Below, piece by piece: positions 26,583-35,310 of a stretch of DNA of 60,924 nucleotides. The notes under the pieces are model-generated. The model did not search any database. It had not been told where the DNA came from and saw only the letters and a program-made list of their open reading frames with translations. A program made the translations under genes and the position numbers. Source of the DNA: Desulfobacterales bacterium (GTDB lineage: Bacteria; Desulfobacterota; Desulfobacteria; Desulfobacterales; UBA11574); contig JAQYVT010000010.1 in NCBI GenBank assembly GCA_030145345.1, positions 1-60,924 on the forward strand. The letters run 5' to 3'. How positions within the stretch are numbered: position 1 is the first letter of the stretch; each line of letters begins with the position of its first letter.

Positions 26583-26670
26583 GAATTATTTTTGGTTATT
26601 TTAAAAAAGACGGTTTTATTAACGCTCCAGAAAACCATAATCTTTCGACAATGATGCACGATCTTAAAAA

Positions 26671-26685
26671 GCAATGTTTGTGCCA
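26671..26685 (-). promoter_or_regulatory. Sigma-54 promoter for the operon starting at 26582
   Basis: On the minus strand it reads TGGCAC-AAACA-TTGC followed by T, a perfect -24/-12 match. Transcription should start near 26660. The dyad site lies 121 bp upstream, centre to centre. Confidence 0.88.
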
Positions 26686-27038: not shown

Positions 27039-27716
27039 CTAAAAGGTCTCACGACTGATTTCACGGCGATCGACCATGTAAAGAAGTGTCGCTTTTTTTC
27101 TAAGCGCTTCTTTGAGATTGTTGAGTTTGAATCGGTCAATACCGTACATGCGAATATACACCCGGCGAAATCCTTTGGGGGATAAATCGTAAGAAGTCAA
27201 AATACTCGCCATACGCCCGCCGTATTCTCGAATCGTGTCGGCGACCTCTTTGACGGATCCCGGCTGATCTTCTACTTCCAGGCCGAATTGAATCCCCCTT
27301 CTTTCTGAACCGGTCAGTGAAATTATCACTCTGAAAACGTCATTTTGAGTGATCGCGCCGAGGATATCACCGTACGGATCGATGACCGGCGCTCCGGATA
27401 TTTTATGCTTCAAAAGTATCTCCGCAGTCTCTTCTATGGTATAGTCGAAAGGAATCGTGATGGGATTCTTCGTCATGATTTCCTTAAGTTTAATGTTCGA
27501 AATTAAATATAAAAGTTCATGAATTTCCAGGCTGGTGGCCTCGGAAGCGGACGCCCTTTTGAGATCCCGATCGGTCACGATTCCAACGAGCTTGCCCTTT
27601 TTCATAACCGGCAACATTTTAATATCATGTTTTTTTAACAATTTGATTGCATCGTTCATGGAATCGTTTTCATCGACGGTGATCGCCGGTTTACTCATCC
27701 AATTCTTTACTAACAT
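27039..27716 (-). CDS. CBS-domain pair with C-terminal ACT-like domain (AcuB-like)
   Basis: The 225-residue protein has two CBS motifs (about 1-60, VKNWMSKPAITV, and 75-135, LKEIMTKNPITI) and then an ACT-like regulatory domain (about 143-215, GIQFGLEVEDQPGSVKEVAD). The arrangement matches AcuB-type proteins, which respond to adenine nucleotides and amino acids and are linked to acetoin or acetyl-CoA metabolism. It lies 143 bp downstream of the synthetase-acetyltransferase gene, possibly on the same transcript. AAAGGAG precedes the ATG. Confidence 0.8.
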   Translation of the reverse strand: MLVKNWMSKPAITVDENDSMNDAIKLLKKHDIKMLPVMKKGKLVGIVTDRDLKRASASEATSLEIHELLYLISNIKLKEIMTKNPITIPFDYTIEETAEILLKHKISGAPVIDPYGDILGAITQNDVFRVIISLTGSERRGIQFGLEVEDQPGSVKEVADTIREYGGRMASILTSYDLSPKGFRRVYIRMYGIDRFKLNNLKEALRKKATLLYMVDRREISRETF

Positions 27717-27859: not shown

Positions 27860-30340
27860 TCAAAGGTTTGCCAGATCGATACTCAATTTATATTCACTTT
27901 CCCCGGTAACCCTTTTGGCGCTGAAACCTAATTTTTCCCCCAGTGCCAACATTTGTGTGTTCTCAGGCAAAACAATTCCTGCCACGGTTTCGATTCCCCG
28001 TTCTTTTGAAATTGACAGACAGCCCCTAAGCAGTTCGGCTCCAATACCTTTTCCGTGCCAGGAATCTGCTACGATCACTGAGAATTCCGCGTGTTTTTGG
28101 TTGTAAACATCCGTGATCACACGGGCAACACCCAACATCTTTTCATTGGGTTCCGCTCCCCAAAGCGCCACCAGTGCAATTTCCCTGTCATAATCAATTT
28201 GAGTGAAACGCGCGAGCATGCGATGCGGAAGTATTTTTAGAGGGCTGAAAAATCGAAAATAAACACTTTGCGGTGAAAGGGAATCAAAAAGCTGTACCAA
28301 AAGCGGCGCGTCCTCAGGTCTTATGGGGCGGATGAATAATTCTCCGATACCTTCCCGTACGGTTCGCGTTTCATACTGGTTGGGATAAGGACTTATAACC
28401 AGATGATGGGGCGCCGTAACGTTGGCCGGTTTCAAAAGGATTCGGACATCCATGGCACAAACATCGTTTTTTCTGACCACCAGGGGGTTGATGTCGATTT
28501 CCTCTATTTCCGGAAAATCGGTTACCAGCTGGGCCAGTCGAATCAGAATTTCTTCAATCCACGTCAACTTCTCAGGCGAATGGATCTCGAATCCTTTGAG
28601 CAGGTGATAGATCTTTGATTTTTCCATAAGCCGTCTGGCCAGGAGCCGATTTAGCGGCGGAAGAGCAACCGCTCGATCTTGTATGACTTCGGCCACGATT
28701 CCCCCGGCTCCAAAGAAAATAACCGGCCCGAAATCCCGATCCTTTTTTGACCCTATGGCCAGTTCATATTTTAAAACATCCTGTTCTGAGCTAGTGTCAG
28801 AACAAGATGTTTTTGTTTTATCAACCGGTATTCCGTAAGCGGTAAGCAAGTCTTTCGCCGCCTCTGGAGTAAGGGGCAAATTTCCTCTTAACAGCCCTTT
28901 TTTAACTAAGGCAGATGCCTTTTCATGGTCAAAATCCATCTTTCTGGGAAGTTTGGGTGGAATCTCATGAAGCAATTCAAAGTTTTCCGAATACCGATAA
29001 AGATCCATAAATGCCCTGACTGCCCGCTCCGGCGTGTCGAAGGTTGGGATCCCTTTACGTTTGAAGATTTCCCGTCCATCGTCCATACGCTTCCCCCCCA
29101 TCCATGAAGTGAAAATTGGATAGGGTTTTCCTTTAAGAAAGTCGGCCAGAGATTCAGCCATATCTGTGGGCCGGGTCATGGCTTGGGGGGCGAGTATTAT
29201 CAAAAACCCGTTCACTTGGGGATCTTTTAGACAGACGTCTACCACTTTTTTGTAGTCTTCAGGAGCGGCGTCTCCCAGAATATCGACCGGGTTTGTACGG
29301 CTCCAGCCGGAAGGAAGAAATTCATCTAGTTTTTGGATGGTCTCGGGTTTCAGTAACGCCGGATCGAAACCATAATCAGAAAGGGCATCTACAGCCATAA
29401 CTCCCGGGCTTCCGGCATTGGTAACAATCGCCAGCCCGGGCTTTAAAGGCCGCGGCCGCTTGCCCAGAAGCTCTGCACAGTCGAAAAGTTCTTCAAAGGT
29501 TTTTACTCTAACAATTCCGGCACGTTCAAAGGCGGCATCATATACCGTATCTTCTCCGCCAAGCCTGCCGGTATGAGAAGCAATCGCCAAAGCCCCCGCC
29601 TTCGTGCGACCGGATTTGAGGGCGATAATCGGTTTTATTCGTGAAACTGCCCGGGCCGCACTCATGAAATTCCTAATTCGGCCGAAGCTTTCTAAATAGA
29701 GTACAATACCGCCGACATTGTAATCTCCTCCCAAATAATCTATCATATCACCGAAATCCACATCCATCATGGTTCCGAGACTCACAAAATAGCCAAAACC
29801 CACATGTTCTCTGATGGAGAGATCGAGAACAGACATGCAAATGGATCCGCTTTGTGATACAAAAGCCATTTTACCGGAAGGCGGCATGTGACGTGTCAAA
29901 CTGGCATTCAGCTTTGACTGGGTGCAGACGAACCCGAGACAATCGGGTCCGATAACCCGAATACCTGCATTTTTGGCTCTATTTATTTCGGCCCGATCAA
30001 GCTCTTGGCCTGCTGCCCCAACCACGTTGCCTCCGCCTGAAATCATGACCAGTCCTTTCACACCGGCCTCAATACATTCTGTGACAATTTGAGATGCCGA
30101 CGCCACAGGTTCGGCCAGAACGGCAAGATCGACTTGGGCTTTAAGCTCCAAAAGTGAAGGATAGACAGATCGCTTTCTTATGGTTCTTAGGTGCGGATTA
30201 ACCGGATAAACTTCCCCGGAATATCCGCCATCGATCAAGTTTTCCACAAGGGTTGAAAAAATGAACCCATTGGATTGACCGTTTCCGATGACAGCGATGG
30301 ATTTTGGTTGAAATATTTTGTCCAGGTTGACTGCACTCAT
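27860..30340 (-). CDS. ADP-forming acyl-CoA synthetase-like protein with truncated ATP-grasp and C-terminal GNAT acetyltransferase
   Basis: From the ATG at 30340 the protein has 826 residues. A CoA-binding Rossmann domain (1-130, PKSIAVIG) and a CoA-ligase domain with the phospho-histidine segment IASHTGRLGGEDTVYDAAF (about 250-270) form the alpha part. The ATP-grasp part runs from LLTAYGIPV almost directly into DFGPVIFFGAGG; about 75 residues of the ATP lobe usual in this family are missing. The C-terminal GNAT domain (about 660-826) keeps the acetyl-CoA loop HGKGIGAELL. It probably acts as a CoA-sensing protein acetyltransferase (Pat-like) rather than an ATP-making enzyme. The upstream start at 30397 lies inside the sigma-54 promoter and is rejected. 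Confidence 0.82.
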   Translation of the reverse strand: MSAVNLDKIFQPKSIAVIGNGQSNGFIFSTLVENLIDGGYSGEVYPVNPHLRTIRKRSVYPSLLELKAQVDLAVLAEPVASASQIVTECIEAGVKGLVMISGGGNVVGAAGQELDRAEINRAKNAGIRVIGPDCLGFVCTQSKLNASLTRHMPPSGKMAFVSQSGSICMSVLDLSIREHVGFGYFVSLGTMMDVDFGDMIDYLGGDYNVGGIVLYLESFGRIRNFMSAARAVSRIKPIIALKSGRTKAGALAIASHTGRLGGEDTVYDAAFERAGIVRVKTFEELFDCAELLGKRPRPLKPGLAIVTNAGSPGVMAVDALSDYGFDPALLKPETIQKLDEFLPSGWSRTNPVDILGDAAPEDYKKVVDVCLKDPQVNGFLIILAPQAMTRPTDMAESLADFLKGKPYPIFTSWMGGKRMDDGREIFKRKGIPTFDTPERAVRAFMDLYRYSENFELLHEIPPKLPRKMDFDHEKASALVKKGLLRGNLPLTPEAAKDLLTAYGIPVDKTKTSCSDTSSEQDVLKYELAIGSKKDRDFGPVIFFGAGGIVAEVIQDRAVALPPLNRLLARRLMEKSKIYHLLKGFEIHSPEKLTWIEEILIRLAQLVTDFPEIEEIDINPLVVRKNDVCAMDVRILLKPANVTAPHHLVISPYPNQYETRTVREGIGELFIRPIRPEDAPLLVQLFDSLSPQSVYFRFFSPLKILPHRMLARFTQIDYDREIALVALWGAEPNEKMLGVARVITDVYNQKHAEFSVIVADSWHGKGIGAELLRGCLSISKERGIETVAGIVLPENTQMLALGEKLGFSAKRVTGESEYKLSIDLANL

Positions 30341-30393
30341 GATTGAAATGTTTCCGTATAAAACAATAAAGGTGATATGATTCATCAAATAGA

Positions 30394-30408
30394 GCAAACC
30401 ACGTGCCA
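30394..30408 (-). promoter_or_regulatory. Sigma-54 promoter for the synthetase-acetyltransferase gene
   Basis: On the minus strand it reads TGGCAC-GTGGT-TTGC followed by T, a perfect -24/-12 match. Transcription should start near 30383. The dyad is centred 123 bp upstream. Confidence 0.88.
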
Positions 30409-35188: not shown

Positions 35189-35295
35189 CACAAAACCTTC
35201 CTTTCTATATTGTCGGGTGTTTTAGAAAGTTTCTGAATGGATGGGTTCTTGGGCACTAAAATTTTTCCATTTTAGTACATCTAATATTGTAATTA

Positions 35296-35310
35296 GCAAC
35301 AGTTGTGCCA
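35296..35310 (-). promoter_or_regulatory. Sigma-54 promoter for the tandem USP gene
   Basis: On the minus strand it reads TGGCAC-AACTG-TTGC followed by T, a perfect -24/-12 match. The transcript should start near 35285, giving a leader of about 97 bases. The dyad lies 122 bp upstream. Confidence 0.9.

Follow-up and report, generated by a model that had tools for sequence, protein, structure and literature searches.

Type I Pat-like acetyltransferase fusions without the ATP-grasp lid in Desulfobacterales and their phylum

In the type I Pats of Salmonella and E. coli, the synthetase module that is joined to the GNAT acetyltransferase domain is accepted to work as an acyl-CoA sensor, and in Salmonella Pat it has a high affinity for acetyl-CoA and drives the protein to oligomerise (PMC8556138). 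The module, approximately 640 residues long, is pictured as catalytically inactive (PMC8556138), which fits E. coli PatZ. ADP-forming synthetases themselves employ an established two-histidine mechanism (PMC11494057). In the Nitrosopumilus 4-hydroxybutyryl-CoA synthetase Nmar_0206, subdomain 3 (residues 503-577) is the ATP-grasp lid, which forms an insertion in subdomain 4 and shows no order in the absence of ligand; it bears H535, the histidine that receives the phosphate first, and Gly311 of the same enzyme contacts the phosphate (PMC11494057). In Bacilli, AcuB is an adenylate-binding protein that, in combination with AMP, inhibits the deacetylase AcuC (PMC13121692).

Here, a stretch of 60,924 nucleotides from a Desulfobacterales bacterium (the window) was analyzed, which encodes a type I Pat-like protein that lacks the lid. 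We consider it likely that the gene specifies a type I Pat, a protein lysine acyltransferase under sigma-54 control, in which acyl-CoA is sensed by a synthetase module that is itself catalytically dead. As such sensing is already accepted for type I Pats, the proposal of an initial sequence-only reading that the module could sense CoA or acyl-CoA is sound but not new. The central mechanism is of a known kind, and the new elements are the recurrent loss of the lid and the complete relatives that kept their catalytic histidines and look catalytically competent. No earlier description of lid-less Pats was found in the literature searched, which misses most subscription journals.

Domain layout and extent of the deletion

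The gene product joins a CoA-synthetase module to a GNAT acetyltransferase at the C-terminus (Table 1). Pfam matches to CoA_binding_2, Succ_CoA_lig, Ligase_CoA_2, a partial ATP-grasp_5 and GNAT agree with the initial description of a complete alpha part and GNAT domain. The likely start is the ATG at 30340, and the alternative TTG at 30397 falls within the sigma-54 site. The GNAT domain contains the P-loop-type CoA-binding motif HGKGIGAEL and the catalytic glutamate E752. In the AlphaFold2 model of the 826-residue protein (pLDDT 82.5, pTM 0.84), subdomain 4 is folded and residues 511-522 of the scar are disordered.

Table 1. Features of the lid-less pat locus and their positions in the window
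Feature	Position	Strand	Basis or remark
Lid-less type I Pat-like protein, 826 aa	27860..30340	minus	ATG 30340, stop ends 27860
Subdomain 1, CoA-binding Rossmann domain, aa 1-140	29921..30340	minus	Pfam CoA_binding_2/CoA_binding; AF2 model; PatZ/8wzu fold match
Subdomain 2, flavodoxin-like, bears swinging loop, aa 141-293	29462..29920	minus	Pfam Succ_CoA_lig; clade dN/dS 0.05-0.15
His256, swinging-loop phosphohistidine (= Nmar H256; E. coli PatZ Leu244)	29573..29575	minus	Invariant in 5-species clade
Subdomain 5, CoA-ligase domain, aa 294-455	28976..29461	minus	Pfam Ligase_CoA_2
Ser311 replacing phosphate-contacting Gly (Nmar G311)	29408..29410	minus	Ser in 5/5 clade; at least 95% Gly in 40 full-lid Pats
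Deletion scar, aa 509-525, site of missing subdomain 3	28766..28816	minus	Alignment; pLDDT <50 at 511-522; dN/dS up to ~1.4
Subdomain 4, C-terminal ATP-grasp half, aa 526-637	28430..28765	minus	Pfam ATP-grasp_5 109-220; folded in model
GNAT domain, aa 660-820, catalytic Glu752 (= PatZ Glu809)	27881..28363	minus	Pfam; conserved columns 100% kept in clade
Sigma-54 -24/-12 site TGGCACGTGGTTTGCT	30393..30408	minus	Perfect consensus, 52 bp upstream of ATG
AcuB-like CBS-CBS-ACT protein, next gene downstream	27039..27716	minus	AcuB structure matches E 8e-21, 4e-18

The sequence-only reading had counted about 30 residues between the segments LLTAYGIPV and DFGPVIFFG, where about 100 are usual, and alignment with complete homologues gave exactly 29 versus 95. 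Over the same alignment columns, the window protein has 91 residues and the complete homologues have 157, which leaves 66 residues missing, and the ATP-grasp_5 match is confined to positions 109-220 of the 221-position profile. Among solved structures, the closest are those of E. coli PatZ (9it0, 9isq) and Nmar_0206 (8wzu). Gaps in the PDB alignments place PatZ chain residues 503-584 opposite residues 512-526 of the window protein and Nmar_0206 residues 512-586 opposite residues 517-526. The missing segment corresponds exactly to subdomain 3, with the HK[ST]D motif and the first catalytic histidine. The loss had been ascribed to the ATP lobe; as subdomain 4, which makes up the remainder of the ATP-grasp, is present and folded in the model, it is better named a loss of the ATP-grasp lid. 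With the lid missing, including its histidine and lysine, the ADP-forming reaction should not run. The earlier view that ATP cannot be made from acyl-CoA thus follows from the two-histidine mechanism, and the genome contains no detectable stand-alone lid or ACD beta subunit that could act in trans.

Lid loss in five species and across the phylum

The deletion is common to the window and to four other genomes from its bacterial family, the named relatives being Desulfobacterales MAGs. Identity to the window protein is 87% in G002, 76% (partial sequence) in G018, 72% in G016 and 69% in G013, and the scars of the five species can be aligned and match in length. In a tree computed without the lid columns, the five lid-less species form one clade (support 100) with a branch length of approximately 0.8 substitutions per site, nested among the family's full-lid homologues (support 99). 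Between the window gene and that of G002, dN/dS (NG86) is lowest in the GNAT domain (0.065), intermediate in subdomains 2, 5 and 4C (0.11, 0.15 and 0.26, respectively) and far higher in the scar (1.3). Throughout the clade the ratio is approximately 0.05-0.4 outside the linker and the scar, and the reading frame is open. Judged from these substitution ratios, all domains of the lid-less gene are under purifying selection and drift is confined to the scar. The probability that the gene is decaying or an assembly artefact is practically negligible: even though the source is a MAG assembly and the full-lid relative in G017 does carry internal stops, five species, each assembled separately, share an open frame and low dN/dS values, with 69-87% identity between the window protein and its four counterparts. 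A one-off deletion or an assembly error, either of which had been named as fatal to the initial proposal, is ruled out by the four additional species. The pat gene of G017 (L067, 5027-7565) is broken by stop codons near the GNAT domain, which reflects gene decay or sequencing error.

Searches of 389 genomes of the order and 395 genomes of the phylum identified many further Pats with a contiguous match over the junction and frames near 820-850 codons. In a large aligned sample of these, the lid is absent from all, either wholly or (G047, L073) largely, and linker lengths vary; in L084-L086, the swinging-loop His has disappeared too, together with a large part of subdomain 5. A tree with 24 lid-less rows requires at least eight changes, and a single lid-less clade, as expected for one ancient lineage, was rejected by the AU test (p-AU 1.2e-9). 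A tree with 38 lid-less and 42 full-lid rows, the latter including two synthetases without GNAT, requires at least nine changes. As the trees come from quick searches, have no branch support other than SH-aLRT and place several lid-less rows on long branches, this figure is a parsimony minimum rather than an exact number. On these trees, lid-less Pats arose at least nine times in the phylum. Clean losses with full-lid sisters are found at L057 (two copies, G033), in L119-L121 compared with L127, and in L112-L116 compared with L124/L128. In G033, one lid-less and one full-lid Pat lie near each other (L057, 5389-7941 and 9897-12650), and copies of both kinds coexist in G575, G583, G483, G664 and G396 as well.

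Sigma-54 site, gene neighbourhood and genome content

Three perfect sigma-54 sites were found in the window, compared with 0.04 expected, and all lie within 9 kb. Genome-wide, 16 such sites were detected versus none for the reversed control, and RpoN is encoded in the genome. The site upstream of the lid-less pat is conserved in L063, L061 and L060; among the four clade loci with upstream DNA, the window included, it is perfect in two and reads TGGCAT in two. The perfect upstream site, its conservation in the clade and the presence of RpoN uphold the predicted membership of the gene in the sigma-54 regulon, which the sequence-only reading had stated. At the full-lid loci L064-L067, a sigma-54 site is located ahead of the universal-stress (Usp) gene that directly precedes pat, which indicates that sigma-54 control is older than the loss of the lid and rules out that such a site is peculiar to the lid-less clade. 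The two other perfect sites in the window, at 26670-26685 (before response regulator and cache histidine kinase genes) and 35295-35310 (before a universal-stress gene), recur in related genomes.

The gene order that is shared, to the contig ends, is CoA-transferase, epimerase, pat, CBS-ACT, response regulator, cache histidine kinase and response regulator. The AcuB-like gene adjoins the lid-less pat in all clade members; as it adjoins full-lid Pats too, it was rejected as a hallmark of the lid-less form. The genome further contains five Hist_deacetyl matches and many AMP-forming ligases. No match to AcsA over the family cut-off was obtained in the genome. This best-known target of Pat is therefore either absent or divergent, a point against the preferred reading, and was discarded as the substrate of acetylation. 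Two more fusions of a CoA enzyme with a GNAT domain are present in the same genome (L005, 1486-3411, minus strand; L009, 142-2019, plus strand; contigs C122 and C32). Both consist of an acetyl-CoA hydrolase-like CoA-transferase with a C-terminal GNAT, a domain call made by eye plus a GNAT match.

Retained residues, proposed function and comparison with known systems

Retention was followed in columns that are at least 95% conserved among 40 full-lid Pats. The GNAT domain keeps 100% of these columns in the window clade and 99% in the other lid-less Pats, and the glutamate equivalent to E752 and PatZ E809 is retained in 34 of the 37 lid-less rows with data. The window clade keeps 95% in subdomain 2, 92% in subdomain 5 and 95% in subdomain 4C, compared with 81%, 76% and 74% in the other lid-less Pats, an erosion to 74-81% that applies outside subdomain 1. 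The swinging-loop His is found in 38/40 full-lid Pats versus 15/38 lid-less ones, including all five of the window clade. Unlike E. coli PatZ, 38 of the 40 full-lid Pats (e.g. L020, L022, L091) possess both catalytic histidines, and their sequences suggest that they may be bifunctional enzymes. Among the complete family Pats L064, L065 and L066, several have HKSN or HKTE instead of HKSD, and the full-lid sister clade (L064, L065, L067) has HKSN or HKTN at the lid histidine, possibly an early sign of decay.

Within the window clade, His256 and the SHTG motif are unchanged in all five members and the motif is followed by Arg259 throughout (SHTGR). The phosphate-binding glycine of the power helices is replaced in 5/5 members (G311S) and asparagine 133 of GPN has become D, H or G, so the phosphoryl chemistry appears to be unravelling despite the retained His256. 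The changes at Asn133 and Gly311 could mean that the acyl/CoA pocket itself is altered. A pure CoA sensor has no obvious need of His256 and SHTG, and their retention counts against the sensor reading.

We infer a protein that has lost synthetase activity, senses acyl-CoA and acetylates other proteins. The clean excision of subdomain 3 would have turned an ADP-forming acyl-CoA synthetase module into a regulatory pseudo-enzyme, removing ATP binding and any ATP cost and leaving a sensor or scaffold. The CoA/acyl-CoA pocket would still be formed by subdomains 1, 2 and 5, probably across a dimer interface, and its occupancy by acyl-CoA would set the oligomeric state and the activity of the GNAT domain. 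With Glu752 as the base, the latter would acetylate metabolic enzymes such as AMP-forming acyl-CoA ligases, and the matching deacetylases are probably linked to adenylate charge through the AcuB-like protein of the adjacent gene.

We regard it as unlikely that the module has sensed nothing since the loss and is kept for GNAT folding and oligomerisation. Such a role as a scaffold would agree with the inactivity of the isolated E. coli PatZ GNAT and the importance of the N-terminal module for structural integrity (PMC8556138), as well as with L084 and L086, in which the GNAT is intact without the swinging loop and much of subdomain 5. However, subdomains 2 and 5 of the window clade evolve at a dN/dS of approximately 0.1-0.15 and keep 92-95% of the conserved columns, and the retained columns include pocket residues that a scaffold does not need. 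Another possibility is that His256 is still phosphorylated, by acyl-CoA plus phosphate or by acetyl phosphate, and that its state gates the GNAT. The invariance of His256 and SHTG in five species over approximately 0.8 substitutions per site, the strong constraint on subdomain 2 and the clade-wide Arg259 speak for this model, but all five carry Ser in place of the phosphate-contacting G311 as well as a replaced Asn133, other lid-less lineages lost the swinging-loop His, and in a clade this young His256 may simply not have decayed yet, which together make it very unlikely. A broader variant combines a recurrent, phylum-wide lid-less class, repeatedly descended from bifunctional synthetase-acetyltransferase fusions with both histidines intact, with a rewiring of the His256 loop in the window clade as a phosphate- or acyl-CoA-driven acetylation switch, and is judged to be quite improbable.

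That another synthetase lends its lid, and the resulting hetero-oligomer still works as a synthetase, is extremely improbable. Three complete synthetases of the same superfamily are present in the genome, and lid-less and full-lid Pat paralogues coexist in some other genomes; against this stand the altered phosphate site and the window genome itself, in which, besides the missing lid and beta subunit, no full-lid Pat paralogue was found. Acyl-CoA sensing by a dead synthetase module remains the preferred reading. Lineages that independently dropped the ATP lid and kept the CoA pocket and an unchanged GNAT represent a natural experiment, which suggests that the ATP chemistry is dispensable and that selection keeps acyl-CoA sensing or scaffolding. 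The repeated loss suggests that the fused half now serves as a fuel gauge rather than an enzyme. The complete relatives with both histidines raise a testable question that is hidden by the textbook view of an inactive module, namely whether some Pats have remained functional synthetases, in which case acyl-CoA would be made or consumed by the very protein that reads its level. Together, the lid-less variant and its competent-looking relatives make the function of the synthetase half directly testable.

Among known systems, B. subtilis acuABC also places an acetyltransferase gene beside an AcuB-like CBS-ACT gene, but AcuA has no synthetase module, and acuC is absent from the window locus, the five deacetylase-family genes lying elsewhere in the genome. 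The complete family Pats L064, L065 and L066 are 61-64% identical to the window protein over residues 1-530 and 70-76% over residues 524-826, and have the sigma-54/Usp/two-component locus in common with it; the lid, absent from the window protein, is present in L064-L066. Subdomains 1-2-5-4 superpose on Nmar_0206 (TM 0.93 on target) with H256 at the same number, whereas the window protein is without the lid and the second His, has Ser in place of Gly311 and has gained a GNAT domain. It has one feature of active ADP-forming synthetases, the swinging-loop His256, and lacks two others, a lid with the HK[ST]D histidine and the phosphate-binding glycine at the power helices. E. coli PatZ and Salmonella Pat (type I GNAT) have the same subdomain order 1-2-5-4 followed by a C-terminal GNAT. 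The model matches liganded PatZ with a TM of 0.86 at approximately 30% identity, Glu809 being equivalent to Glu752. The PatZ gene in MG1655, unlike the window gene, has no adjoining CBS-ACT gene, and the two modules differ in opposite ways: PatZ kept the lid and lost the swinging-loop His (Leu244), whereas the window protein lost the lid and kept the His.
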